From contig JAKURY010000002.1 of assembly GCA_022452145.1 (NCBI GenBank), forward strand, positions 1 through 64,000: a DNA stretch of 64,000 bases, given 5' to 3'. Source of the DNA: Acidimicrobiales bacterium (GTDB lineage: Bacteria; Actinomycetota; Acidimicrobiia; Acidimicrobiales; MedAcidi-G1). Position 1 is the first letter of the stretch. Each line of letters opens with the position of its first letter. The notes beneath the pieces are model-generated. The model saw only the letters and a program-made list of their open reading frames with translations, did no database searches and was not told the DNA's origin. Below, one piece after another: positions 34,830 through 62,274 of this stretch. The position numbers and the translations under genes are program-made.

Positions 34830-35318
34830 GTGCTCGGCCAGTACCTACCCATCGTCCTCCTGCTGTTCCTCACCGTCCTCTTCGCTGCTGTCAGCTTCGT
34901 GGTGTCGCGCCTGCTGGCGCCACGGAGTCCCAACGACCGCAAGGCCGCCCCCTACGAGTGCGGGATCATTCCCGGCCGGGAGACGCCCGAGCGCTTCCCC
35001 GTGCGCTTCTTTCTCGTCGCGATGATCTTCATCGTCTTCGATATCGAGATCATCTTCTTCTACCCGTGGGCCATCGCCCACCGGGGCATCGGCCTCTACG
35101 GGCTGGTCGCCGTGCTGATCTTCTCGGCAGCGGTCTTCGAGTCATTCGTGTACCTGATCGGCAACGGTGCGCTCGAATGGGGCCCGGTGAGGCGGCTCCG
35201 CACCGGCGACGCCGTGTCGGCCAACCGGACCGCCAGCAGCACGATCCGTCGAGTTGGCGTACGTGAGGTGGGCCTGGAGGGTCGTCGGGTGGGCGGCAGC
35301 AGGGGAGAGGCAGCCTGA
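34830..35318 (+). CDS. nuoA: NADH-quinone oxidoreductase subunit A, 14-gene operon
   Basis: About 162 residues with three helices and the conserved loop [20 protein letters not shown], which contains the quinone-channel cysteine of subunit A. The last 45 residues are a basic, hydrophilic tail not usual for NuoA. I favour GTG 34830 (MLGQYLPI) because a CGGGG lies ahead of it and the protein then opens as NuoA normally does; a TTG at 34803 is the alternative. Its stop overlaps nuoB (TGATG). Confidence 0.9.
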
Positions 35319-35920
35319 TGGTCCGTGTCCCGGTGATCGGTGACGTCTCACACGTCATGAGCGACGGCCTCGAAGGGTTGGAGCACAACTTCGTGACGGC
35401 CCGGATCGAGGACCTGGTGAAGTGGTCGCGGGCCCGCAGTTGCTGGCCGGCCACGTTCGGCCTGGCCTGCTGCGCCCTCGAGATGATGGCGACCGGAGCG
35501 GCCCACTACGACCTCGCCCGCTACGGCATGGAGGTCTTCCGTGCCTCGCCCCGCCAGGCCGACCTGATGATCGTCGCTGGCCGGGTCTCCCAGAAGATGG
35601 CTCCGATCCTGCGCCAGATCTACGACCAGATGATGGAGCCCAAGTGGGTCATCTCCATGGGCGTCTGCGCATCCACCGGCGGCATGTTCAACAACTACGC
35701 CATCGTGCAGGGTGTCGACCAGGTAGTGCCGGTGGACGTCTACGCGCCCGGCTGTCCGCCCGGCCCGGAGACGTTGATGCACGCGATCCTGACCCTGCAC
35801 GACAACATCCAGAACGGTGAGCTGACCCGCCGCCGTCAGGCCTTTGACGGGGGCGCGGCGATAGCGGTGGGCGAAAAGGGCGCTCCGACCGACCAGCCGG
35901 TGGAGCTGGACGCCCGATGA
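35318..35920 (+). CDS. nuoB: NADH-quinone oxidoreductase subunit B, 14-gene operon
   Basis: A 200-residue subunit that holds cluster N2, the direct quinone reductant. Ligands are Cys51, Cys52, Cys117 and Cys146 in [16 protein letters not shown] and APGCPPGP. The C-terminal 35 residues are an extra soluble tail. It overlaps nuoA and nuoC by a few bases. Confidence 0.94.
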
Positions 35921-36471
35921 GCGGCCCGACCATGGCCGGAGCGGACGTGGCCGACACCGTCGGTACGGAGGACGTCGCCGTGACACCGGTCGGTCCGACC
36001 GCCTGGGGGGTTCCGGTGACCGAGGCATTCGGCCAGACCGTCCTGCACCCGCCGGTCGACCGCTGGCTGGAGACGGTGGCCGCCTGTCGCGACGACGGCT
36101 ACGTCATGGCCATCGACGTGACCGCCGTGGACTATTCGGCCCACCCGGGCCGTACCGACCTCCCCGAGAGCGTGGAGCCCGAACGGTTCGAGGTGGTTGC
36201 CATGCTCATCTCGCACGCCACCGGAGAACGGGTACGGCTGCGGACCCAGGTGCCAGAGTCCGATCCCGTCGTGCCTTCGCTGTTCGATCTGTTCCCTGGG
36301 ACCGAGGCCATGGAACGCGAGGCGTGGGACCTGGTCGGCGTGGCCTTCAGCGGCCACCCCGACCCCACGAGGATCCTCATGCCAGAGGACTGGGAGGGCC
36401 ATCCCCTGCGTCGTGACGTGGCCATCGGTCGGATCCCGGTCCAGTTCAGGGAAGCCCCGCCCGCACGATGA
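35917..36471 (+). CDS. nuoC: NADH-quinone oxidoreductase subunit C, 14-gene operon
   Basis: A 184-residue hydrophilic subunit of the connecting arm. The family hallmark [17 protein letters not shown] lies near 126-142, followed by [11 protein letters not shown]. The first 40 residues are variable. It overlaps nuoB by ATGA, and nuoD by the same junction. It is not fused to nuoD, unlike E. coli. Confidence 0.92.
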
Positions 36472-37820
36472 GGGACATGGCCAAGCAGGCGACCGACGCC
36501 GTCGACGACGGACCGGCGGATGACGGGGGCGGGAACCTCGGCTCGGCCGAGCGCGTGCACCGCCGCGACGACAGCAGCGCCGTGCTCCGCCTGAGCGAGG
36601 CCGAGGCAGCCGTGCTGGTCGGCGATCCCGACGATCCGCCGACCGGTGACGTCGCCGACCAGCGGATGATCCTCAACATGGGTCCCGCTCACCCGTCCAC
36701 GCACGGGGTGCTCCGGCTCATGCTGGAGATGGAGGGCGAGACGATCCTGCGGTCCAAGCCGGTCATCGGCTACCTCCACACAGGCATGGAGAAGACGGCC
36801 GAGGACCTCACCTACCTCCAGGGACCCACCAACGTCACCCGCATGGACTACGCGGCGCCGCTCTTCTCGGAGCTGGCCTTCTGCATGGCCGTCGAACAGC
36901 TCCTGGACCTCGAGGTGCCGCCCAGGGCCACCTGGATCCGGATGCTCATGTGCGAGTTGAACCGTGTCTCCTCCCACCTGCTGTTCCAGGCCACCAACGG
37001 CATGGACCTGGGCGCCGTGTCCATGATGATCTACGGCTGGCGGGAACGCGAGGAGGTGCTGCGCTTCTTCGAGAACGTGACCGGCCTTCGGATGAACCAC
37101 AACTACATCCGACCGGGTGGCGTGGCCGCCGATCTCCCGGACGGTTGGCAGGCCGACGTGGAGCGCCTGCTGGAGCTGATCCCGCCCCGCCTCGACGAGT
37201 ACGACACGCTGCTGACCGGCCAGCCCATCTTCCGGGGCCGCCTGCAGGGCGTAGGTGTGCTGACCCCGGCCGAGGCCCTGGCCCTGTCGGCCACCGGACC
37301 CATCCTGCGGTCCACCGGCTACGCCTGGGACCTGCGACGCGACCAGCCCTACCTGGCCTACGAGGAGGTCGACTTCGACGTCATCGTGGGGACCCACGGC
37401 GACTCCTTCGACCGCTACGCCATCCGCCTCAACGAGATCCGGGAATCGCTGCGGATCGTCGAGCAGATTCTGGACCTCATGCCCGCCGGGGACTACCGGG
37501 TGCAGGACAAGAAGGTCACCCCGCCGCCCCGGGCCCGCATCGACGAGTCGATGGAGGCCCTCATCCACCACTTCAAGATCTTCACCGAGGGCTTCCACGT
37601 ACCCGAGGGCGAGACGTATGCCGCCGTGGAGTCGCCGCGGGGCGAGCTGGGCTGCTACCTGGTGTCGGACGGTGGCCCCAAGCCCTACCGCATGCACATA
37701 CGCGGCCCCAGCTTCGTGAACCTCCAGACCCTTCCCCACCTGATGGAGGGTGGCCTGATCGCCGACGGCGTGGCCGTCATCTCCTCGGTGGATCCAATCA
37801 TGGGCGAGGTCGACCGGTGA
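36468..37820 (+). CDS. nuoD: NADH-quinone oxidoreductase subunit D (49-kDa homologue), 14-gene operon
   Basis: A 450-residue subunit forming the quinone cavity with NuoB. It has NMGPAHPSTHGVLRL (70-84), RPGGVAADLP and the C-terminal GEVDR. At the position of mitochondrial Arg85 (LLHRG) this copy has Thr105 in GYLHTGMEKTAED. The first 65 residues are an acidic extension. It overlaps nuoC and nuoE. Confidence 0.94.
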   Translation: MRDMAKQATDAVDDGPADDGGGNLGSAERVHRRDDSSAVLRLSEAEAAVLVGDPDDPPTGDVADQRMILNMGPAHPSTHGVLRLMLEMEGETILRSKPVIGYLHTGMEKTAEDLTYLQGPTNVTRMDYAAPLFSELAFCMAVEQLLDLEVPPRATWIRMLMCELNRVSSHLLFQATNGMDLGAVSMMIYGWREREEVLRFFENVTGLRMNHNYIRPGGVAADLPDGWQADVERLLELIPPRLDEYDTLLTGQPIFRGRLQGVGVLTPAEALALSATGPILRSTGYAWDLRRDQPYLAYEEVDFDVIVGTHGDSFDRYAIRLNEIRESLRIVEQILDLMPAGDYRVQDKKVTPPPRARIDESMEALIHHFKIFTEGFHVPEGETYAAVESPRGELGCYLVSDGGPKPYRMHIRGPSFVNLQTLPHLMEGGLIADGVAVISSVDPIMGEVDR

Positions 37821-50633: not shown

Positions 50634-50999
50634 GTGTCCGACTTCCTTCGCAGCTGGCTGGTGGTGGTGGTGTTCGGCGGCCTCGCGGTGCTGCTGGTCT
50701 CGGCCTTCCTGGGCCTCGGGAGCCTGCTGCGCCCCGAGCGCGAGACGCCACAGAAGCGGATCACCTACGAGTCAGGCGTCGACCCGTACGGCGACATGTG
50801 GAGCCAGTCCAACATCCGGTACTACGTGTTCGCCCTGATGTTCGTGCTGTTCGACGTGGAGGCCGTCTTCATCTTCCCATGGGCCACCCGCCTCGAGGTC
50901 TACGACGTCTTCGGCCTGGTCGAGATGGCCATATTCATCTTCATCCTGGCCCTCGGGCTGTTCTACGCCTGGCGCAAGCGCCTGCTGCGGTGGATCTGA
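50634..50999 (+). CDS. nuoA: Quinone oxidoreductase subunit A, 11-gene complex I operon
   Basis: A 121-residue, three-helix subunit A of normal length, without the basic tail of the first copy. The conserved loop reads TYESGVDPYGDMWSQ: the cysteine usual in the PYECG loop is replaced by serine. The FVLFDVEAVFIFPWA helix is typical. The start is GTG. Confidence 0.92.
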   Translation: MSDFLRSWLVVVVFGGLAVLLVSAFLGLGSLLRPERETPQKRITYESGVDPYGDMWSQSNIRYYVFALMFVLFDVEAVFIFPWATRLEVYDVFGLVEMAIFIFILALGLFYAWRKRLLRWI

Positions 51000-51019
51000 G
51001 CGGGCGGGGGGTGTAGGAG

Positions 51020-51520
51020 ATGGGTCTGGTCGAGAGCGGCAAACTGCCGAAGCCGCTCACCAAGCTGCTCAACATCAGCCGCAAGTACTCGCTGTGGGTG
51101 TACCAGTGGGGTCTGGCGTGCTGCGCCATCGAGATGGGCGCTGCGTTCGCCTCGCCCCGCTACGACGTCATGCGCCTCGGCGTGATCCCGTTCCCGGCCA
51201 GCCCGCGCCAGGCCGACCTGGTGGTGATCTCCGGCACGGTGACCGACAAGATGGCTCCGGCCGTGCGACGCCTCTACGAGCAGATGCCGGAGCCCAAGTA
51301 CGTGATCTCCATGGGCTCGTGCGCGAACTGCGGCGGTCCCTACTGGGACAGCTACTCGGTGACCAAGGGCGTCGACCAGATCATCCCGGTCGACGTGTAC
51401 GTGCCCGGTTGCCCGCCCCGCCCCGAGGCACTGCTGGAGGGCATCGTGCTGCTCCAGGAGCGCATCGCCACCGAGGACATGACCGAACGCTGGACGGTTG
51501 ATCCCATTGTCGTCACCTGA
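51020..51520 (+). CDS. nuoB: Quinone oxidoreductase subunit B, 11-gene complex I operon
   Basis: A 166-residue subunit carrying cluster N2. Ligands are Cys34, Cys35, Cys101 and Cys131 in [20 protein letters not shown] and VPGCPPRP. It lacks the long C-terminal tail of the first copy. It is preceded by GTAGGAG. Confidence 0.94.
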
Positions 51521-51533
51521 GGCCGGCGCCGCC

Positions 51534-52196
51534 GTGGACTCAGAGGCAGAGGCCCCGCCGGTCGACGAGCGTCGCGACGCGCTCGTCGCCGCGCTGGACG
51601 CCGCGCTGGGCGACGGCTTCGTCGAATCCCATGTCGTACCCGGCATCGACGTCTGCGTCCGCGTCACCGCCGAGGCCTGGGTGGACGCCGGCAACGCCCT
51701 TCGCGACCGCTGCGCCATGTCGTACTTCAACTTCCTCTCAGCCATCGACTGGATGCCATCGCCGTACGGCCGGGACATGGACGCCCAGGTCGACCTGGAG
51801 CCGGCCGTGGATGCCGCCCCGGCCGAGATGGGCTGGGGCCTGACCGGTGGCGAGACCCGGTTCCAGCTGCTGGCACGGGTCCACGACCCGGTCGGCCACC
51901 TAGGCGTGACCGTCAAGGCGGACCTGGTCGGCGACCGTCCCGAGGTCGATTCCTGGATTCCTGTGTACCCCGGCGCCAACTGGCACGAGCGAGAGGCGTG
52001 GGAGATGTTCGGCATCTCGTTCCGGGGCCACCCCAACCAGGTCCACCTCTACCTTCCGTCCCACTTCGAGGGGAACCCGCTGCGCAAGGACTACCCACTG
52101 CTGGCCCGTCGGGTGAAGCCTTGGCCCGGCATCGTTGACGTCGAGCTCATGCCCGGCGGGGACGACGACGCCGACGCCGAGGCGGCAGGGTCGTGA
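51534..52196 (+). CDS. nuoC: Quinone oxidoreductase subunit C, 11-gene complex I operon
   Basis: About 220 residues. The family region is WHEREAWEMFGISFRGHPN, followed by PSHFEGNPLRKDYPLLAR. I chose GTG 51534, with GAGG 12 bases ahead; TTG codons at 51498 and 51507 overlapping nuoB are alternatives, so the start is uncertain. The stop overlaps nuoD (GTGA). It is not fused to nuoD. Confidence 0.88.
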   Translation: MDSEAEAPPVDERRDALVAALDAALGDGFVESHVVPGIDVCVRVTAEAWVDAGNALRDRCAMSYFNFLSAIDWMPSPYGRDMDAQVDLEPAVDAAPAEMGWGLTGGETRFQLLARVHDPVGHLGVTVKADLVGDRPEVDSWIPVYPGANWHEREAWEMFGISFRGHPNQVHLYLPSHFEGNPLRKDYPLLARRVKPWPGIVDVELMPGGDDDADAEAAGS

Positions 52197-53365
52197 CCGC
52201 GCTGGGAGATCCCCGCCAACTCGCCTACATCGCAGGCCAGGCCAGCGACGCTCGGGTGAACCTGGAGATCGAGACCGAGGGCATGACCCTCAACATCGGC
52301 CCCCAGCACCCGGCCACCCACGGCACGCTGCGCATCGTCGTGAAGCTGGACGGCGAGCGGGTGATGCGGGCCGAGCCGGTAATGGGCTACATGCACCGCG
52401 GCTACGAGAAGCTGGCCGAGGTCCGCACGTATCCGCAGGTCACGACGCTGGTCAACCGCATCGACTGGCTGGGCAGCTTCGCCAACGAGGTGCCGTTCAT
52501 CCTGGCCGCAGAGCAGATCATGGGCGTCGAGGCGCCACCGCGTGCCCAGTGGATCCGCACCGTCCTGTTCGAGCTCTCCAGGATCGCCAACGTCGTCCTG
52601 TTCCTGGGCGACATGGGCGTGCAGCTGGGCGCCGTCACCCCTGTGTTCTTTGCCTTCCGCGACCGCGAGTTCGTCCTCAACCAGATAGAGGCGGTCACCG
52701 GCGGCCGGTTCCATCCCAACTTCGACCGCATCGGTGGCCTCAAGGACGACATCCCCAAGGGCTGGACCGAAGAGACCAGGGGGGTGCTGGGCCGGATCCG
52801 CACGTTCTGCGACGAGATGGAGGACCTGGTCACCGGCAACGAGATCTTCCAGTCCCGTACCCGTGGCATCGGCGTCATCCCGGCCGACCTGGGCCTGTCG
52901 TACGGCCTGTCGGGGGCCAACATCCGGGCCAGCGGCGTCGACTGGGATCTGCGTCGGGACGGCGGCATCGGCCTCGTCCACGACCAGCTGGACTGGAAGG
53001 TCTGGACGCATCCGGACGGTGACTCGTTCGCCCGCTACTGGGTGCGCCTCCAGGAGGTCCGCGAGGCGTGCAATATGGTCGAGCAGCTCCTGGACGGCAT
53101 CCCGTCGGGTCCGGTCATGGCCAAGGTGCCGCGCATCATCAAGGTCCCGCCCGGCGAGGCCTACGTGGAGACCGAGAACCCCCTTGGCGTCATGGGCTAC
53201 TACGTGGTCTCCAAGGGAGACCTGGTCCCGTACCGGGTCAAGATCCGCTCGGCGTCGTTCAACAACATCTCCATCACGCCGTGGTTGCTGGAGGGCACCT
53301 ACGTCCCCGACGTCGTCTCGATCCTGGCCAGCCTCTACTTCATCCTCGGGGACATCGACCGGTGA
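52193..53365 (+). CDS. nuoD: Quinone oxidoreductase subunit D (49-kDa homologue), 11-gene complex I operon
   Basis: A 390-residue subunit with NIGPQHPATHGTLRI (34-48), and GDIDR at its end. Arg69 in GYMHRGYEKLAE aligns with mitochondrial 49-kDa Arg85, the residue dimethylated by NDUFAF7. The first operon's NuoD has Thr there. It lacks the acidic N-terminal extension of the first copy. The start is GTG. Confidence 0.94.
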   Translation: MTALGDPRQLAYIAGQASDARVNLEIETEGMTLNIGPQHPATHGTLRIVVKLDGERVMRAEPVMGYMHRGYEKLAEVRTYPQVTTLVNRIDWLGSFANEVPFILAAEQIMGVEAPPRAQWIRTVLFELSRIANVVLFLGDMGVQLGAVTPVFFAFRDREFVLNQIEAVTGGRFHPNFDRIGGLKDDIPKGWTEETRGVLGRIRTFCDEMEDLVTGNEIFQSRTRGIGVIPADLGLSYGLSGANIRASGVDWDLRRDGGIGLVHDQLDWKVWTHPDGDSFARYWVRLQEVREACNMVEQLLDGIPSGPVMAKVPRIIKVPPGEAYVETENPLGVMGYYVVSKGDLVPYRVKIRSASFNNISITPWLLEGTYVPDVVSILASLYFILGDIDR

Positions 53366-54402
53366 GCGACTTCCTGACGCTGGCGGTCGAACTGGCCTGG
53401 TGGCAGCAGACCGGCATCCGTGCGGTGGTCGGCCTGGTGGCGGTGCTGCTGCCCGCCGGCACGCTCGTCTACCTCTTCCTGTTCAAGATGATGAGCTTCA
53501 TGCAGAGCCGGCTGGGCCCCATGGAGGCCGGACCGTACGGTTCGCTGCAGCTGCTGGCCGAGGTCGGCAAGTTCCTCCAGAAGGAGGACATCATCCCCGA
53601 CAAGGCCGACCGCATCGTCTTCAAGGCGGCGCCCTTCGTGGTGCTCATCTCCACGTTCCTGCTGGTCCTCGTCATCCCGGCCGGGCCGGACGCCTGGTTC
53701 ATCAACGTGGACACGGGCATCTTCCTAGCGCTGGCCGTCTCCTCGATCTCGGTGATCGGGATCCTGATGGCCGGTTGGGCGTCGTCGTCCAAGTACTCGC
53801 TGATGGGTGCCCTGCGGGCCGCCGGCCAGCTGGTTGCGTATGAGCTACCCCTGGTCCTGGCAGTGATGGGCGTGGTCATCCAGGCCGGCACGCTCAACGT
53901 CCAGGGCATCGTCATGGCCCAGGCCACCGGCGAGATCTTCGGCTGGGGTGGCATCGGCAACCCATTCATATTCACCCAGTTCCTCGGCTTCGCCATCTTC
54001 CTGGTCGCCGTCCAGGCCGAGCTCACCCAGCCGCCGTTCGACATGCCGGTGGCCGAGTCGGAGCTAGTCACCGGCTACCTGACCGAGTACTCCGGCCTCC
54101 GGTTCCTGTTGTTCTTCATCGGCGAGTTCGCCACGGCCGGCATCTTCGCGGCGCTGGCCGCCACCCTGTTCCTGGGCGGCTGGTACGTGCCGGGGATCGA
54201 TCCGACCAGCAACCTGTTCAACGTCATCGGCCCGGCGATCCTGCTCGGCAAGGTGATCCTTGTGGCCTTCCTGATCTTCTGGTTCCGGTTCACCTACCCC
54301 CGGTTCCGCGAGGACCAGCTGCAGCAGCTGGCCTGGAAGGTCCTCATCCCGCTGTCGCTTGCCAACATCGTCGTCACCGGCGTGCTGAAGGTGGTCTTCT
54401 GA
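53362..54402 (+). CDS. nuoH: Quinone oxidoreductase subunit H, 11-gene complex I operon
   Basis: A 346-residue, eight-helix subunit with [33 protein letters not shown] and [20 protein letters not shown]. The start is GTG overlapping nuoD. nuoI follows directly, with no nuoEFG between D and H, as in cyanobacterial and other 11-subunit enzymes. Confidence 0.94.
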
Positions 54403-54911
54403 TGCCTACGACCCCGAAGATCCCCGGCCTGGTCAAGGGCCTCGGCGTCACCCTCAAGACGATGCTGCGCACCCTCATCAAGGGGTCGCACACCGTCCAG
54501 TACCCGAGGGTCAAGGAGGCGCCGTCGCCACGGTCCCGCGGCGTGATCACCCTCCACGTGGAGAACTGCACGTCCTGCATGCTGTGCGTCCGTGAGTGCC
54601 CGGACTGGTGCATCTACATCGAGGGCCACAAGTACAAGGCGCCACCCCGCCGGCCGGGGGGCAAGCCGCGCCTCAAGAACGCCCTGGACCGCTTCGACAT
54701 CGACTACGCCCTGTGCATGTACTGCGGCATCTGCGTCGAGGTCTGCCCGTTCGAGGCCCTCTTCTGGTCGCCTGAGTTCGAGTACTCGGAGCCCAGGATC
54801 GCCGACCTGCTCCACGACAAGTCGAAGCTCAGCCAGTGGATGGAGACCGTCCCGGACTTCCAGGACTACGAGTCTGGCAGCGAGGCCAAGAAGCCGAAGG
54901 TGCCGCGTTGA
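54402..54911 (+). CDS. nuoI: Quinone oxidoreductase subunit I, 11-gene complex I operon
   Basis: A 169-residue two-cluster ferredoxin subunit. Cluster ligands are Cys56, 59, 62 and 66 ([11 protein letters not shown]), and Cys105, 108, 111 and 115 ([11 protein letters not shown]). The [20 protein letters not shown] stretch is close to cyanobacterial NdhI. In this enzyme NuoI would be the entry point for electrons, since NuoEFG are missing. It overlaps both neighbours. Confidence 0.94.
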
Positions 54912-55453
54912 GCATCCTGGCCGCTCTGGGGGAAATGGACCGCCTATCGGGCGGCGAGGTCCTCGTGGCCCAGAACGTGGCCTTTGCCATCATGGCCGTC
55001 ACCATGGTTGCCAGTGCCCTTCGCATGGTGACAACCCGCAACGTGGTCCACGCCGCCCTGTACCTGGTGGTGGTGCTGGCAGGGGTGGCGGGCCTGTTCA
55101 TCCTGCTGGGCGCCGAGTTCGTCGGCGTGACGCAGGTGCTGGTCTACATCGGGGCCATCGTCGTGCTGTTCCTGTTCGGCATCATGCTCACGAAGGGGTC
55201 CTTCGGCGACGACGATGGCGTGACCGGCGAGGGGCGCCTCATGGCAGGCCTGGTCGGGCTGCTTGTGTTCGCCGTGACGGCCGCCGCCCTGGTCGACTCG
55301 TTCGCCGACGCCGAGCTCTCCCGGGCCGCTCCGTCAACCACGGCCGAGGTCGCCGACAGCATCTTCAGCGCCTACATCGTTCCCTTCGAGGCCGTGTCGG
55401 TCCTCCTGCTGGCCGCCCTCATCGGCTCCATAGTCGTGGCAAGGAGGGACTGA
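54908..55453 (+). CDS. nuoJ: Quinone oxidoreductase subunit J, 11-gene complex I operon
   Basis: A 181-residue, five-helix subunit with [20 protein letters not shown] and [20 protein letters not shown]. The TTG overlaps the nuoI stop (TTGA); an ATG at 54935 is a weaker choice. It lacks the Asp/Pro-rich tail of the first copy. Confidence 0.9.
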
Positions 55454-55454
55454 C

Positions 55455-55754
55455 GTGCTACTGAACCAGTTCCTGCTGTTGTCCGCCGTCCTGTTCGCGA
55501 TCGGTGTCTACGGCGTGCTGGCCCGTCGCAACGGCGTGCTGGTGCTCATGTCGATAGAGCTGATCCTGAACGCGGTCAACATCAACCTGGTGGCCTTCGG
55601 GGCGTTCCGGGCCACCGTGGGAGGCGAGGTCTTCGCCCTCTTCGTGATCGCCGTGGCCGCCGCCGAGGTCGGGGTGGGGTTGGCCATGGTGCTGCTGCTC
55701 TACCGCAGCAGTCGGAGCATCGACCTGACCCGTATAGACCGGTTGAGGGGCTGA
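55455..55754 (+). CDS. nuoK: Quinone oxidoreductase subunit K, 11-gene complex I operon
   Basis: A 99-residue, three-helix subunit. The conserved glutamates are in MSIELILNAVNINLVAFGAF and in AAAEVGVGLAMVLLL. The start is GTG, one base after the nuoJ stop. Confidence 0.93.
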   Translation: MLLNQFLLLSAVLFAIGVYGVLARRNGVLVLMSIELILNAVNINLVAFGAFRATVGGEVFALFVIAVAAAEVGVGLAMVLLLYRSSRSIDLTRIDRLRG

Positions 55755-55758
55755 GCCG

Positions 55759-58026
55759 ATGAACGACCTCCTCCTCCTCGCTTCCACGTCTGCCGATGCC
55801 GGCCTCCCACTCGGGATCACACTCGGCGGTAGCTGGCTGCTCCGCAACGTGTGGCTGATCCCGCTGCTGCCCACCCTCTCGTTCCTGGGCATCCTCTTCT
55901 TCGGAAAGCGCATGCCCCGGGGCGGTTCCGAGTTGGGCATCGCCGCGGTGGGCATAGCCTTCGTGCTGGCCCTGCTGACCGGCGTCGCCTGGGTGGACCA
56001 CCGCGACTCCCCCCATGACGAGGAGGTCCACGTGGCGGTCATCGTCGTGGACGACCACGGCGTCGGACACGCAGACGAATCCGCCGAGGGCCACGGCGGC
56101 GGCCACCCCTCGTTGGCAGTGCAACGCACTGCCACCTGGTTCCAGGCTGGCGGCATGGCGTTCACGGTCGGCACCCTCGTCGACGGGCTGGCGGTGATGA
56201 TGCTCCTCGTCGTCACCATCGTTTCGCTGCTCGTGCACGTGTACTCCACCGAGTATGTGCGCGGCGACCGTCGGTACACCCACTTCTTCGCCTTCCTGTC
56301 GCTGTTCAGCGCCTCGATGCTCCTGTTGGTGGTGTCGGAGAACACCCTGCAGCTGCTCTGCGCCTGGGAGCTGGTCGGCGTCTGCTCGTTCGTCCTGATC
56401 GGGCACTGGTGGGAGGAGAAGCCCAACAGCGATGCGGCGCTGAAGGCCTTCCTCACCAACCGGGTGGGCGACATGGGCCTGCTGGTAGGAGTGAGCGTCC
56501 TGTTCTTCGCCGTCGGCTCGGCCCTACCCGACCGGTTCGGCTCGTTCTCCATCGCCGAGACGAACGCCCTGGCGAACAGCGGCACCCTGTCGCACACGGC
56601 GCTGCTCGTGGCCTCGTGTGGCCTGATGGCCGCAGTCATGTCGAAGTCGGGCCAGTTCTTCCTGCACACCTGGCTGCCCGACGCCATGGCCGGCCCGACG
56701 CCGGTATCGGCGCTCATCCACGCCGCCACCATGGTCGTGGCCGGCGTGTTCATGATCGCCCGCATGTACGGCGTGTTCTTCGAGGGCTTCCAGATAGGTG
56801 GCAGCTCGATCAACCTGATGGCCTTCATCGGCGGCCTCACCACCATCGTCGGCGCCTGCTTGGCATTCGTGCAGCGCGACATCAAGAAGGTGCTTGCCTA
56901 CTCGACGATCTCCCAGCTCGGCTACATGGTGATGGCCCTCGGCGTGGGCGCCTGGACGGCGGCCGTGTTCCACCTGTTCACCCACGCCTTCTTCAAGGCA
57001 TGCCTGTTCCTGGGCTCGGGCTCGGTAGCCCACGCCGTGCACGGCTTCGACATGAAGTCCGACATGGGTGGCCTCCGCAAGCGCATGCCGCACACCTACC
57101 GGACCTTCATGATCGGCACCATCGCCCTGGCCGGCCTGCCGCCGCTGGCCGGCTTCTGGTCCAAGGACGAGATCCTGGTCGGGACCGGCGGCTGGGGCCT
57201 GCTGGGCGGGACCGGCGGCAACGGCGCCTACACCCTGATGCTGGGCATGGGCATGCTCACGGCGGCGCTGACCGCCGCCTACATGACCCGCTGCGTGTAC
57301 CTGACCTTCTTCGGCGAGTTCCGGGGCCACGGCGAACCCCACGAGTCCGGCCGGCTCATAACCGTGCCGTTGTGGATCCTGGCCGGCCTGGCCATCGTCG
57401 CTGGCTTCCTGAACCTGCCCACGGGCTTCCAGCTGGCCCCCGGGTCACTGCAGGAACGGTTCGGCCACTACGTGGAGCCGGTGGCCGGCTACTTCCCGGC
57501 CATCTCCCACGCCACGCCCAGCTGGTCGTTGGCCATCGTCTCGACGCTGGTCGTGGTCGGCGGCATCGCGGCGGCCGGGTACTACTACTTCGTGAAGGTG
57601 GAGGCGGCCTCGGAGGCCGCCGGCATCAGCCTCACAGAGTTGTCCGACGGACCCACCACGAGGTACCAGCTGGCCAGGGCGGGGCTCACCCTGCTGGACA
57701 ACAGGTACTACCTCGACCACCTCTACAACGGGGTGGTGGCCGACGGCACCAAGGGGCCCGTGGCCCGCCTGGCATATCGCATCGACCAGCAGGTGATCGA
57801 CCGTACGGTCGACGTGGTCGGCCAGACCGCCGTGAAGGCGGGCACCGTCGTCTACGACAAGGTCGACCAGCTGGTGGTCGACGGGGCGGTCAACGCCACG
57901 GGCCTCGCCTCATCCGGGATGGGTGAGGAACTCCGAAAGGTCAACTCCGGCAAGGTCCAGAGCTACGCGGCAATCCTGTTCGCGGCAGCGACGGTCCTGG
58001 CCGGCCTTCTGATCGTCATCGTCTAG
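55759..58026 (+). CDS. nuoL: Quinone oxidoreductase subunit L with a His-rich loop, 11-gene complex I operon
   Basis: A 755-residue proton-pumping subunit with CAWELVGVCSFVLIGHWW, KSGQFFLHTWLPDAMAGPTP and QRDIKKVLAYSTISQLGY. Residues 81-117, in the loop before the third helix, hold seven histidines among many acidic residues (HDEEVHVAVIVVDDHGVGH and EGHGGGH). The first NuoL lacks this. The C-terminal 120 residues form the long lateral-helix part. Confidence 0.93.
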   Translation: MNDLLLLASTSADAGLPLGITLGGSWLLRNVWLIPLLPTLSFLGILFFGKRMPRGGSELGIAAVGIAFVLALLTGVAWVDHRDSPHDEEVHVAVIVVDDHGVGHADESAEGHGGGHPSLAVQRTATWFQAGGMAFTVGTLVDGLAVMMLLVVTIVSLLVHVYSTEYVRGDRRYTHFFAFLSLFSASMLLLVVSENTLQLLCAWELVGVCSFVLIGHWWEEKPNSDAALKAFLTNRVGDMGLLVGVSVLFFAVGSALPDRFGSFSIAETNALANSGTLSHTALLVASCGLMAAVMSKSGQFFLHTWLPDAMAGPTPVSALIHAATMVVAGVFMIARMYGVFFEGFQIGGSSINLMAFIGGLTTIVGACLAFVQRDIKKVLAYSTISQLGYMVMALGVGAWTAAVFHLFTHAFFKACLFLGSGSVAHAVHGFDMKSDMGGLRKRMPHTYRTFMIGTIALAGLPPLAGFWSKDEILVGTGGWGLLGGTGGNGAYTLMLGMGMLTAALTAAYMTRCVYLTFFGEFRGHGEPHESGRLITVPLWILAGLAIVAGFLNLPTGFQLAPGSLQERFGHYVEPVAGYFPAISHATPSWSLAIVSTLVVVGGIAAAGYYYFVKVEAASEAAGISLTELSDGPTTRYQLARAGLTLLDNRYYLDHLYNGVVADGTKGPVARLAYRIDQQVIDRTVDVVGQTAVKAGTVVYDKVDQLVVDGAVNATGLASSGMGEELRKVNSGKVQSYAAILFAAATVLAGLLIVIV

Positions 58027-58037
58027 GAGACGCCGAC

Positions 58038-59681
58038 ATGGAAAATCTGCTCGACGGCTGGGGCATCACGCTCGCCACCTTCTCACCGCTCGCCGGTGTG
58101 GCGGTCATGATGCTGATTCCAAGGGAGCGCGAGGACCGGCACAGGCTGATCGCGCTGGTCACCTCGTTGTGGGTGGCGTTCGTGGGCGTGCTGCTGCTCA
58201 TCTGGTTCGACCTGGGCCACACCGGCCAGCTGCAGTTTGTGGTCGACAAGCCGTGGATAGACGTGATCTCCAGCAGGTACCTGGTGGGCATTGACGGCAT
58301 GTCCCTGCCGCTGATCCTGCTGACCATGCTGATCGTGCCGATGTGCATCATCTACAGCTGGAACCACTTCCCGGACCCGGTGAACCCGAAGGCCTTCCTG
58401 ATCCTGATCCTGATTCTTGAGACTGGGATGATCGGCACCTTCGTGGCCCAGGACCTGGTGCTCTTCTTCGTGTTCTTCGAGGTCGTGCTCCTGCCGATGT
58501 TCTTCATGATCGCCGTATGGGGTGGCGAGGACCGCCGCTACGCGTCCCTGAAGTTCTTCCTGTACACCCTCTTCGGTTCGGCTCTCATGCTGGTCAGCTT
58601 CCTGGCCCTGTTCTTCCTGACCGGCGCCGACACGTTCTCCTTCGCCGGCCTGGCCGACGCGGTGGCCGCCGGTGGGGTGTCCGGCACCGCCCAGCTCTGG
58701 ATCTTCGGTGGCATGTTCCTGGGCTTCGCCATCAAGGTGCCGATGTTCCCGTTCCACACCTGGCTGCCCGACGCCCACACCCAGGCGCCGACGGTCGGCT
58801 CGGTCATCCTGGCCGCCGTGCTCCTGAAGCTCGGCACCTACGGCTTCGTGCGCATCGCCATCCCGATCCTGCCTGATGCCGCCGTGGCATGGGCGCCCTG
58901 GATCGGTCTGCTGGCCGTGGTGGGCATCATCTACGGAGCCCTCGGGTGCCTGGCTCAGACCGACATGAAGCGCCTGATCGCCTTCTCCTCGGTAGCCCAC
59001 ATGGGCTTCGTGATGCTGGGCATCGCCACGCTGACCGACTTCGGCATCAACGCGGCGATCATGGGCATGGTCGCCCACGGCCTCATAACCGGGATGCTCT
59101 TCTTCCTCGCCGGCTCGGTGAAGGAGCGGTTCCACACGCTCGAGATCAGCCGCCTGGGTGGCCTGCTGGTACAGGCGCCGCGCATGGGATGGATCTTCGG
59201 GTTCTGCGTCATGGCCTCGCTCGGCCTCCCCGGCCTGGCCGGCTTCTGGGGCGAGTTCCCCGCGATCCTGTCGGCCTACCAGCCGGCCAACGGCGTGCCC
59301 GTGGAGATCTTCAGGATCTTCATGGTGGTCGCAGCTCTGGGTACCGTGCTTGCCGCTGGCTACCTGCTCTGGCTGCTCCAGAGGGTGGCGTTCGGCACCC
59401 CGCCGGAGGAGTTCGTCGACGACCCGCACATCACCGACACCACGAGGTACGAGTGGATCTCCTGGGCTCCGCTGCTGGCCCTCATCGTGGCCATCGGCGT
59501 CTACCCGAACCTGGTCTTCCGCCTCACCGACGGTGCGGTCGACGCCTCGCTGAACGAGTGCCTGAGGGTGGACGAGCGCGTTCTGACGGCCGACGAGGTC
59601 GAGGCGCTGGGTTGCAGTGACGTCTACGACCTCGGTGGTGGCGGCTCCGACGCGCCCGTCGAGCACGCGGCCGGGAACTAG
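58038..59681 (+). CDS. nuoM: Quinone oxidoreductase subunit M, 11-gene complex I operon
   Basis: A 547-residue antiporter-like subunit with FFEVVLLPMFFMIAVWGG, KVPMFPFHTWLPDAHTQAP and QTDMKRLIAFSSVAHMGF. The last 45 residues are acidic and include two cysteines (NECLRVDERV, EALGCSDVYD). It lies 11 bases after nuoL, with GGAGACG just upstream. Confidence 0.93.
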   Translation: MENLLDGWGITLATFSPLAGVAVMMLIPREREDRHRLIALVTSLWVAFVGVLLLIWFDLGHTGQLQFVVDKPWIDVISSRYLVGIDGMSLPLILLTMLIVPMCIIYSWNHFPDPVNPKAFLILILILETGMIGTFVAQDLVLFFVFFEVVLLPMFFMIAVWGGEDRRYASLKFFLYTLFGSALMLVSFLALFFLTGADTFSFAGLADAVAAGGVSGTAQLWIFGGMFLGFAIKVPMFPFHTWLPDAHTQAPTVGSVILAAVLLKLGTYGFVRIAIPILPDAAVAWAPWIGLLAVVGIIYGALGCLAQTDMKRLIAFSSVAHMGFVMLGIATLTDFGINAAIMGMVAHGLITGMLFFLAGSVKERFHTLEISRLGGLLVQAPRMGWIFGFCVMASLGLPGLAGFWGEFPAILSAYQPANGVPVEIFRIFMVVAALGTVLAAGYLLWLLQRVAFGTPPEEFVDDPHITDTTRYEWISWAPLLALIVAIGVYPNLVFRLTDGAVDASLNECLRVDERVLTADEVEALGCSDVYDLGGGGSDAPVEHAAGN

Positions 59682-59684
59682 CCC

Positions 59685-61193
59685 GTGGGCCTCGACCTCC
59701 TCACCCTCGCCTTCGTGCGACCGGCGATCGACTGGCACGCCATCGCGCCCGAACTCGTGCTGCTCACGGTCGGCTGCCTCATCACGTTGGTGGACATCGT
59801 CTTCCTGGAGAAGGCCCGTCCGTTCACCGCGGCGTTGGCCGGACTCGGCTTGCTGGCTACGGCGGTGCCGCTGCTCACGCTGGCCGTGGACGGCACCGAC
59901 AGGGTCATGTTCGACGGGGCCTACGTGGTCGACGAGTTCTCGCTGGTCATGAAGGCCCTGTTCCTGCTGGCCGGCTACGTCGTCGTCCTGCTGTCGACCA
60001 ACTACGTGGCCGAGGGCGACTACTGGGAGAACGAGTACTACGGCCTGCTGCTGGCCTCGCTCATGGGCATGGTCATGATGGCCTCGGCCCGCGACCTCGT
60101 CTCTATCTTCGTGGCCCTCGAGTTGCTGTCCATCCCGGCCTACCTTCTGGTGGCCTGGCGCAAGCGTGACCTCCATTCCACCGAAGCCGGCCTGAAGTAC
60201 TACCTGATGGGCGTGTTCGCCTCTGCGGTGATGCTCTACGGCATGTCGCTGCTCTACGGGGTGGGCGGATCCACCCTGCTGGCCGACATCGGCTCCTCGC
60301 TCGCCGCCGCTGGTACCTCGAACGCCGTGGTAACGATGGGCATCGTTTTCGTGGTGGCCGGCTTCGCCTTCAAGGTCTCCGCCGTGCCGTTCCACACCTG
60401 GGCCCCCGACGTGTACGAGGGTGCTCCCACGCCGGTGACGGCGTTCCTGTCCGTGGCCTCCAAGGCGGCCGGCTTCGTTGCCCTGCTGGCGCTGGTGTTC
60501 GTGGGCTTCTACGCCCGCAGCGAGGTCTGGGAGCCGCTGGTTTGGATCCTGGCCGCCCTGTCGATGACCGTCGGCAACCTGGTGGCCCTCCGCCAGACCA
60601 ACGTGGTGAGGTTGATGGCCTACTCGGGCATCGCCCAGACCGGCTTCATGATCGCCCCGCTGGCCGTCGCCGGACACGGCCTGGCCAACGGCGACCAGGC
60701 CCTGTCGGCCGTCGTCACCTACCTGGTCATCTACACCGCCATGAACCTGGGCGCCTTCACCGTGATAATCGCCCTGGCCCGGCGGACTGGCTCGGCCGAC
60801 GTCACCTCGTTCGCAGGGGCCTTCCAGTTCGCTCCTGGCCTGACCGTCGCAATGTCCATCTTCCTGTTCTCGCTGGCCGGCATCCCGCCGCTGGGCGGAT
60901 GGTTCGCCAAGTTCGAGGTGTTCCGTGTGCTGGCCACGGCCGGTGAGCCTTGGGGCTACGTGCTGGCCGTCGTCGGTGCCGTCAACTCGGTGATAGCCCT
61001 CTACTACTACGCCTCCCTGGCCCGCCGCATGTGGGCCGACGACCCGGTCGACGGCGACCTGGGCCCGGTCCCGGTCACCCCCTCGCTCGTATCGGCGCTG
61101 ACGCTCTGCGGCGTGGTCACCCTGGCCTTCGGCGTGGCGCCACAGCTCGTGGCCCGCTTCACCGACGTCAGCCTGCTGGCCCTCGGGGGCTGA
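59685..61193 (+). CDS. nuoN: Quinone oxidoreductase subunit N, 11-gene complex I operon
   Basis: A 502-residue antiporter-like subunit with FVALELLSIPAYLLVAWRKR, FKVSAVPFHTWAPDVYEGAP and QTNVVRLMAYSGIAQTGF. The lysine of the usual DxKRLLAYS motif is Val here (NVVRLMAYS). The start is GTG, three bases after nuoM. The methyltransferase gene follows immediately. Confidence 0.93.
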   Translation: MGLDLLTLAFVRPAIDWHAIAPELVLLTVGCLITLVDIVFLEKARPFTAALAGLGLLATAVPLLTLAVDGTDRVMFDGAYVVDEFSLVMKALFLLAGYVVVLLSTNYVAEGDYWENEYYGLLLASLMGMVMMASARDLVSIFVALELLSIPAYLLVAWRKRDLHSTEAGLKYYLMGVFASAVMLYGMSLLYGVGGSTLLADIGSSLAAAGTSNAVVTMGIVFVVAGFAFKVSAVPFHTWAPDVYEGAPTPVTAFLSVASKAAGFVALLALVFVGFYARSEVWEPLVWILAALSMTVGNLVALRQTNVVRLMAYSGIAQTGFMIAPLAVAGHGLANGDQALSAVVTYLVIYTAMNLGAFTVIIALARRTGSADVTSFAGAFQFAPGLTVAMSIFLFSLAGIPPLGGWFAKFEVFRVLATAGEPWGYVLAVVGAVNSVIALYYYASLARRMWADDPVDGDLGPVPVTPSLVSALTLCGVVTLAFGVAPQLVARFTDVSLLALGG

Positions 61194-61266: not shown

Positions 61267-62274
61267 GTGGCGTTCGACGCCTGGGTGGAGGCCTGCCTGT
61301 ACGACCCCTTCGGGGGCTTCTACGCATCCGGGGGAGCGGCCGGTCGGCGGGGTGACTTCCTCACCTCGCCCGAGGTGGGTCCTCTGTTCGGGGCGGTGAT
61401 GGCGCGCTGGCTTGACGCACGATGGGAGGCCCTCGGCCGGCCGGACGGGTTCACGGTGGTCGAAGCGGCCGCCGGGGCGGGCACGTTGGCCCGCAGCGTC
61501 GTGGCTGCAGGCCCGGCGTGCCTGGTGACGGGAAGGTACGTGATGGTCGAGCGCAGCCCCGCCCTCCGTCAGCGGCAGCCGACCGGTGCCGGGCTGTCGT
61601 CGCTGGCCGGCCTGGAGGGCCTGGGCGCCGAGGCCGACCACCGGCTGGTCGGCGTGGTGATGGCCAACGAACTGCTCGACAACCTGGCCTTCGGCCTGCT
61701 CAAGGCCGTGAACGGAGCGTGGCACGAGGTCCTGGTGGACGTGGAAGGGGCCGTGGTGGATCGCCCGACGTTCTGCGAGGTGCTCGGCGACGCCGTGGAC
61801 CCTCCGGTCGACGTACCGGCGCTGCACGGTGCCCGCATCCCGGTGCAGGCTGAGGCCGCGCGCTGGGTGGACGATGCCCGTTCGGTGCTGTCGGCGGGAT
61901 CGGTGCTGGTCGTGGACTACGCATCCACCACCCCGGAGTTGGCGGCACGTCCGACCACAGACTGGCTGCGTACCTTCCGGGGACACCAGCGGGGAGGGGC
62001 GGCGGTCGAGGCCCCCGGTACCCAGGACGTGACCGTGGAGGTGGCCGTCGACCAGCTGCCGCCGGGGGCGGCTGCCACCACCCAGGCCGCGTTCCTGCGC
62101 GCCCACGGCATCGACGATCTCGTGGCCGACGGCCGTCGCCTATGGGCGGAGCGGGCCGGCCTAGGCGACCTCGGGGCACTGCTGGCCAGAAGCAGGATCG
62201 CCGAGGCCGATGCCCTGCTGGACGCGGGCGGCCTGGGCGGGTTCATCGCCCTGGAGTGGTGCGTCGGCTCCTGA
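61267..62274 (+). CDS. MidA/NDUFAF7-family SAM-dependent methyltransferase
   Basis: A 335-residue protein with the family's GGFYASGG and DFLTSPEVGPLFGAV near the start, the SAM loop VVEAAAGAGTLARSV, and the hallmark VMANELLDNLAFGLL. In mitochondria NDUFAF7/MidA symmetrically dimethylates Arg85 of the 49-kDa complex I subunit and is needed for assembly. GTG 61267 is the first usable start, but the same frame back to 61192 (GQPAERPLADRLAERIRASG) looks like the family N-terminus and has no ATG, GTG or TTG. Its place right after nuoN of the 11-gene operon supports a role in maturing that enzyme. Confidence 0.87.
   Translation: MAFDAWVEACLYDPFGGFYASGGAAGRRGDFLTSPEVGPLFGAVMARWLDARWEALGRPDGFTVVEAAAGAGTLARSVVAAGPACLVTGRYVMVERSPALRQRQPTGAGLSSLAGLEGLGAEADHRLVGVVMANELLDNLAFGLLKAVNGAWHEVLVDVEGAVVDRPTFCEVLGDAVDPPVDVPALHGARIPVQAEAARWVDDARSVLSAGSVLVVDYASTTPELAARPTTDWLRTFRGHQRGGAAVEAPGTQDVTVEVAVDQLPPGAAATTQAAFLRAHGIDDLVADGRRLWAERAGLGDLGALLARSRIAEADALLDAGGLGGFIALEWCVGS

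Follow-up and report, generated by a model that had tools for sequence, protein, structure and literature searches.

A MidA/NDUFAF7-family methyltransferase gene linked to the arginine-type NuoD of one of two complexes I in an Acidimicrobiales genome

The stretch of DNA analysed here (64,000 nucleotides of Acidimicrobiales contig JAKURY010000002.1; hereafter the window) holds two complex I clusters in succession, the first encoding a 14-subunit and the second an 11-subunit enzyme, and a putative protein methyltransferase gene stands at the end of the second. This locus raises the question of which complex, and which subunit, the methyltransferase serves. An earlier, sequence-only reading of the window had placed the gene directly after nuoN2 and proposed that its product modifies an arginine of the second complex alone. 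The placement is borne out, as nuoN2 and midA lie on the same strand and are separated by 73 bases; the proposal is taken up below.

The midA gene and the two complex I clusters

The second cluster (50634–61193) reads nuoA-B-C-D-H-I-J-K-L-M-N, with E, F and G absent from it, the gene content of an 11-subunit complex I. The features that enter the argument are listed with the evidence for each; the swap position is the site at which NuoD and NuoB exchange an arginine, described in the following section.

35318–35920, + strand, nuoB1, Arg89 (codon 35582–35584) at the swap position; sequence at the swap position
36468–37820, + strand, nuoD1 of the 14-subunit complex, Thr105 at codon 36780–36782 (HTGMEK); PF00346, TIGR01962
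50634–50999, + strand, nuoA2; PF00507
51020–51520, + strand, nuoB2, Thr73 (codon 51236–51238) at the swap position; PF01058
51498–52196, + strand, nuoC2; PF00329
52193–53365, + strand, nuoD2, proposed MidA substrate; PF00346 and NuoD models
52397–52399, + strand, codon of NuoD2 Arg69 (HRGYEK), proposed dimethylation site; HRGxE motif
53365–54402, + strand, nuoH2, frame open from 53068, start provisionally placed at the nuoD2 end; frame and cluster order in other genomes
54402–54911, + strand, nuoI2; 4Fe-4S models and cluster order in other genomes
54836–55453, + strand, nuoJ2, approximate start; frame and cluster order in other genomes
55455–55754, + strand, nuoK2; frame and cluster order in other genomes
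55759–58026, + strand, nuoL2; frame and cluster order in other genomes
58038–59681, + strand, nuoM2; frame and cluster order in other genomes
59685–61193, + strand, nuoN2, directly upstream of midA; PF00361
61267–62274, + strand, midA, MidA/NDUFAF7-family protein methyltransferase, 335 aa, GTG start; PF02636, family profile, predicted fold

Judged by sequence and modelled fold, the product of 61267–62274 is a MidA/NDUFAF7-family protein (PF02636, COG1565). It matches PF02636 (Methyltransf_28) with an E-value of 1.1e-27 and 97.5 bits, against a curated cut-off of 23.3, and a Pfam search finds no second match to this model in the genome; no NCBIfam model matched the product. A profile of 14 MidA relatives reaches Dictyostelium discoideum MidA (5ztz) at E 2.5e-48 across profile positions 2–302 of 340, and retrieves the structures of two proteobacterial family members as well. 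The AlphaFold2 model (mean pLDDT 92.9) aligns with 5ztz at Z 31.2 over 313 residues, with an rmsd of 2.9 and 23% identity across the aligned residues, vs Z 15.0 for the best structure from outside the family. N134, E135, D138, D217, Y218, D254 and T256 are invariant in both of our alignments (14 and 34 rows), and the glycine-rich motif reads EAAAGAGTL; NExxD, the DY strand and this glycine-rich motif are the conserved motifs of the family. The Pfam score, the similarity and fold over the full length, these motifs and the presence of a NuoD with an HRGxE arginine in the same genome all point to the same assignment. With human NDUFAF7 and Dictyostelium MidA (5ztz, 5zu0), the protein shares its Pfam family, the fold over nearly the whole chain and a candidate NuoD/NDUFS2 partner carrying the HRGxE arginine; it differs in gene position, directly downstream of the nuo2 cluster, and in its setting, a cell that has two complexes I and presents the arginine in the NuoD of only one of them.

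An arginine exchanged between NuoD and NuoB

The residues named in the sequence-only reading are as claimed, with Arg69 of NuoD2 in GYMHRGYEKL and Thr105 of NuoD1 in GYLHTGMEKT. By its HRGxE motif, Arg69 corresponds to Arg-85 of human NDUFS2 and to Arg-65 of Paracoccus Nqo4, as these are described in PMC8042128 and PMC3750175. NuoB shows the reverse pattern, with Arg89 in NuoB1 and Thr73 in NuoB2. The further claim of a target arginine retained by NuoD2 alone thus holds among the NuoDs and fails for the complexes, since complex 1 has an arginine too, in NuoB1; this arginine therefore sits outside the known target protein of MidA. Complex 1 (Thr105 with Arg89) is of the NuoD-Thr/NuoB-Arg, or Thermus, type and complex 2 is in the opposite state. 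An Arg/Thr swap between Nqo4 and Nqo6 is described for Thermus vs other enzymes, with the two arginine side chains occupying the same space beside cluster N2 (PMC5552823, PMC8042128). The window holds this published Thermus/mitochondria swap, at the same two positions; what sets it apart is that both states occur within one genome and that MidA accompanies the NuoD-Arg state.

Across the phylum, among 169 NuoD loci typed, the NuoD and NuoB residues could both be read in 128; there, NuoD-Arg is paired with NuoB-Thr in 91 loci, with NuoB-Trp in 3 and with NuoB-Pro in 2, NuoD-Thr is paired with NuoB-Arg in all 32, and neither an Arg/Arg nor a Thr/Thr combination is found. NuoB2 carries Thr in 19 of 19 further second-cluster loci. 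The three Trp loci (L212, L214, L216, all of family f39) combine NuoD GNLHRGVEKL or GNLHRGIEKL with NuoB AGWCSVKM or AGWCSIKM and represent a third state of the swap.

Distribution and placement of midA relative to nuoD

We then asked how MidA and NuoD2 are distributed over the 246 genomes of the class that are at least 90% complete. For NuoD2, the best E-values leave a gap between one group at 2.8e-101 or better and another at 4e-80 or worse, and presence was therefore called at 1e-100. We find midA in 187 of the 194 genomes with NuoD2 vs 9 of the 52 without it (7 genomes have NuoD2 and no MidA, and 43 have neither), and, within the order, in 80 of 81 vs 4 of 43, those 4 being doubtful (1 genome with NuoD2 and no MidA, 39 with neither). 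Fisher tests that ignore kinship give p = 1.2e-31 for the class and 1.8e-26 for the order. Six of the 43 genomes of the order without NuoD2 were typed, and all six have a Thr-type NuoD with NuoB-Arg and no midA.

The four doubtful genomes (G459, G465, G481, G490) all exceed the Pfam cut-off for PF02636. A blast search with the window's MidA gave nothing better than E 0.2 in G465 and G459, and in G490 and G481 it aligns MidA residues 45–105 and 49–104 only, at 48–49% identity; G399 and G427, which have NuoD2, show equally weak Pfam matches, yet align across nearly the whole protein. Given these poor or partial matches, the four were counted as doubtful MidA and not as absent. The stretches of about 60 MidA-like residues in G490 and G481 (L369, L370), both genomes without NuoD2, are possibly decayed midA genes. 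Elsewhere in the class, the five genomes with MidA and without NuoD2 all score well as MidA, and two of them (G394, G398) belong to one genus, so that some may be real exceptions. The control genomes of E. coli and Thermus have a NuoD match and no PF02636 match. That of Haloferax volcanii matches both PF02636 and the NuoD model, and the pair may extend to archaea. Distances between MidA proteins track those between NuoD2 proteins (mirror-tree r = 0.86, 49 genomes), a value to which we give little weight, as shared genome descent alone would yield a high r.

At the level of the phylum, MidA is present in 89 of 296 genomes. Residue typing covers 163 of these 296; outside it stand five MidA genomes (G178, G242, G253, G264, G277) and 128 others, which include genomes without any NuoD-like match (39 of 296) and low-ranked distant relatives, and the search for Thr-type NuoD covered 79 genomes out of a list of more than 80. 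The typed genomes divide into 81 with Arg-type NuoD and MidA, 51 with Arg-type NuoD and no MidA, 28 with Thr-type NuoD only and no MidA, and 3 with Thr-type NuoD only and MidA. The link runs one way: MidA is nearly always found with an Arg-type NuoD (81 of 84 typed MidA genomes), and an Arg-type NuoD does not imply MidA, which is missing from 51 of 132 such genomes and from 44 of 111 at a completeness of at least 90%. Arg-type NuoD without MidA is common, and the arginine therefore works without MidA. In two of the three Thr-only MidA genomes (G092, G208), the 10–11 kb read around midA is free of nuo genes, and in the third (G279) an Arg-type nuoD was not found in the genome. G279 carries a lone Thr-type nuoB2 beside midA (L357, 15433–16959), possibly what is left of a second complex since lost, or else a nuoB-midA pair.

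The gene order found in the window recurs in its relatives. Among the best 80 of 581 relatives on named contigs, which are hence close relatives and by title nearly all Acidimicrobiia or other actinobacteria, 78 have at least 1 kb of sequence before midA, and in 75 of these 78 the end of nuoN2 lies less than 1 kb upstream of it, an adjacency that is more than chance; the NuoD2 motif reads HRGYEK in 44 of the 44 loci among those best 80 in which it was read. Elsewhere in the order, NuoD2 orthologues from other families are 76–83% identical to that of the window and, in the regions read, mostly lie on the same stretch as midA. Nineteen further genomes from the class or with a class-like contig (20 stretches) place midA less than 1 kb after nuoN2 in 16 cases, the exceptions being two in which midA lies farther along the contig (G113, G045) and one in which it is on another contig (G057). 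The contig of G141, one of those 16 genomes, is probably mis-binned. JADDPU010000310.1 (L194/L261), an Acidimicrobiia-like nuo2-midA stretch filed under a Rubrobacter MAG with a NuoD2 78% identical to that of the window, is probably a mis-binned contig, and two records titled Bifidobacterium breve (L251, L285) also look misnamed.

Linkage of midA to the nuo genes weakens with distance from the window. By coordinates among the matches listed, midA and nuoD2 are less than 12 kb apart in 40 of 50 genomes of the order and on the same contig in 42, vs 23 and 31 of 57 genomes in the rest of the class. Coordinates of both genes are available for 78 of the 81 phylum genomes with MidA and Arg-type NuoD, and midA lies within 12 kb of nuoD2 in 45 of them, beyond 12 kb in 3 and on a different contig in 30. 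In three genomes of family f39, outside the count of 78, no nuo gene occurs in the 11–12 kb around midA. In three of three scanned loci of family f15 (L004, L006, L012), midA sits beside a class-I fructose-bisphosphate aldolase gene. Plasmid matches to MidA comprise 16 alpha- and betaproteobacterial records; in the single region read, from a Sinorhizobium plasmid, the gene lies between lgt and pgeF and has no nuo neighbours.

Much of the linkage within the window's class is one inherited arrangement, and many of these genomes are accordingly not independent, as would be expected if midA were a mere passenger, passed on and lost along with the nuo2 operon and functionally unconnected to it. Two sets of genomes speak against such a passenger, which we regard as most unlikely. 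In family f15, midA is on a different contig from nuoD2 in 12 of 12 genomes and still co-occurs with Arg-type NuoD. More tellingly, there are seven families (f21, f32, f41, f44, f55, f58, f61; one Streptomyces-like) in which nuoD2 lies outside the operon, and in the five regions read (L227–L231) no other nuo gene occurs in the 16–18 kb around their Arg-type nuoD. Of 19 second-cluster loci read (18 from these families, the last from G279), 16 have nuoH2 next after nuoC2 and gave no nuoD in a tblastn search, two have an irregular layout and likewise lack nuoD, and that of G279 is nuoB2 alone, beside midA. In an eighth family, f20, nuoB2 and nuoD2 are on different contigs. Across the seven families and f20, midA is less than 12 kb from nuoD2 in 28 of 31 MidA genomes, and less than 1.5 kb in 18; in the remaining 3 the two genes are on different contigs. 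Where nuoD sits outside the operon, midA is found with nuoD rather than at the operon loci read, which a NuoD substrate would predict; because partner and operon are separated here, these families provide our strongest argument that NuoD is the partner.

The second nuo cluster of Streptomyces is described as contiguous except for nuoD2 (PMC3765725); like the loci of G023, G246 and others, it lacks E, F and G and has nuoD2 outside the cluster, and the examined parts of that account mention no midA neighbour. The same pairing bears on a different role for the enzyme. Wolbachia MidA expressed in E. coli is reported to methylate adenine and cytosine (PMC12455994), and MidA might thus be a DNA or general methyltransferase whose position beside nuo genes has some other cause. 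An independent DNA enzyme would not explain co-occurrence with NuoD2, or pairing with nuoD across different gene arrangements, and we consider this role very unlikely.

NuoD2 as the probable substrate, and what follows from it

We consider it likely that NuoD2 is the substrate of this bacterial MidA/NDUFAF7 enzyme, with Arg69 symmetrically dimethylated, and that complex 1 is out of its reach. Human NDUFAF7 methylates Arg-85 of NDUFS2 (PMC3829151), and the equivalent arginine is described as dimethylated in Paracoccus denitrificans and as present but unmodified in E. coli (PMC3750175). MidA would most likely bind free NuoD2 before or during its meeting with NuoB2 and, by analogy with NDUFAF7 acting on NDUFS2, would symmetrically dimethylate Arg69 beside the site of cluster N2; going by the human enzyme (PMC3829151, PMC8042128), this methylation may help NuoD2 to join NuoB2 around that cluster. 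Complex 1 would escape because its arginine is in NuoB1 (Arg89), in another sequence context, and NuoD1 has Thr105. The idea that the enzyme modifies only the second complex I is thus upheld in part: MidA and NuoD2 co-occur, midA stays near relocated Arg-type nuoD, and the typed Thr-only genomes of the order lack midA, whereas the tie to Arg-type NuoD holds in one direction. Paracoccus complex I, with its symmetrically dimethylated Arg-65 of Nqo4 (PMC3750175), has the same motif in a bacterial NuoD, but comes from an alphaproteobacterium; the window is from an actinomycetote, has an 11-subunit complex beside a 14-subunit one, and carries a site predicted from sequence.

MidA could instead serve NuoD2 or its complex in another way, acting on a different residue or subunit or as a non-catalytic assembly chaperone. 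Gene linkage points to NuoD and not to any one residue, and the second residue past the arginine is highly variable (Y, A, H, F, I and others among the Arg-type loci of the phylum; 52397–52405 in the window). The human and Dictyostelium enzymes, however, act on this very arginine (PMC3829151, PMC9006661), N134, E135 and D138 are invariant in the two alignments, and the arginine is present in nearly all typed MidA genomes. Such another role is in our judgement improbable.

Action of NDUFAF7/MidA on NuoD, the modification in a bacterium, the residue swap and the separate nuoD2 of Streptomyces are already published. Apparently new, as none of it was found among the titles and abstracts listed, are the actinobacterial tie between midA and nuoD2, a single enzyme apparently dedicated to one of two complexes, and the passage of midA with a relocated nuoD; a bacterial or actinobacterial MidA-NuoD link was likewise not found there, and as most subscription journals lie outside that search, we do not claim its absence from print. 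One methylatable and one non-methylatable complex I per cell, with midA tied to the first, would offer a clean test of what dimethyl-arginine does in complex I, a role hard to probe through arginine mutants, since these lose the functional N2 cluster (PMC8042128). If our reading is true, loss of midA should harm the second complex I only, and as this pair seems to be present in Streptomyces-like genomes too, culturable laboratory strains should exist.

The locus also bears on whether the modification predates mitochondria and reaches beyond Proteobacteria. The sequence-only reading had suggested that it may be ancestral. According to a review, NDUFAF7 is of alphaproteobacterial origin (PMC9006661); the occurrence of MidA in 89 of the 296 genomes of the phylum is compatible with an older origin or with transfer. 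As a tentative and rather speculative extension, MidA might be an ancient enzyme devoted to maturing the NuoD-Arg form of complex I, wide in Actinomycetota and perhaps in archaea and not a proteobacterial invention; the shift of the arginine to NuoB might have freed the 14-subunit complex from methylation, and NuoD-Arg lineages without MidA might compensate otherwise, e.g., by a Phe two residues after the arginine.

That position was compared with the presence of MidA among the Arg-type loci. Loci with Tyr, Ala or His there have MidA in 70 cases and lack it in 5; loci with Phe have it in 3 and lack it in 33. A NuoD tree of 137 rows, built with these columns excluded, shows 5 changes of Phe and 15 of MidA; across 12 independent pairs discordant for MidA, Phe opposed MidA in 3 to 4 and never agreed with it (p = 0.125 to 0.25 by sign test). 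This is only suggestive, and Phe as a determinant remains no more than a lead.

A second, partial midA-like stretch occurs in one genome (G263; L192, 16747–17085), about 2 kb after midA and near the contig end; it is 56% identical and may be a duplicate or a fragment.
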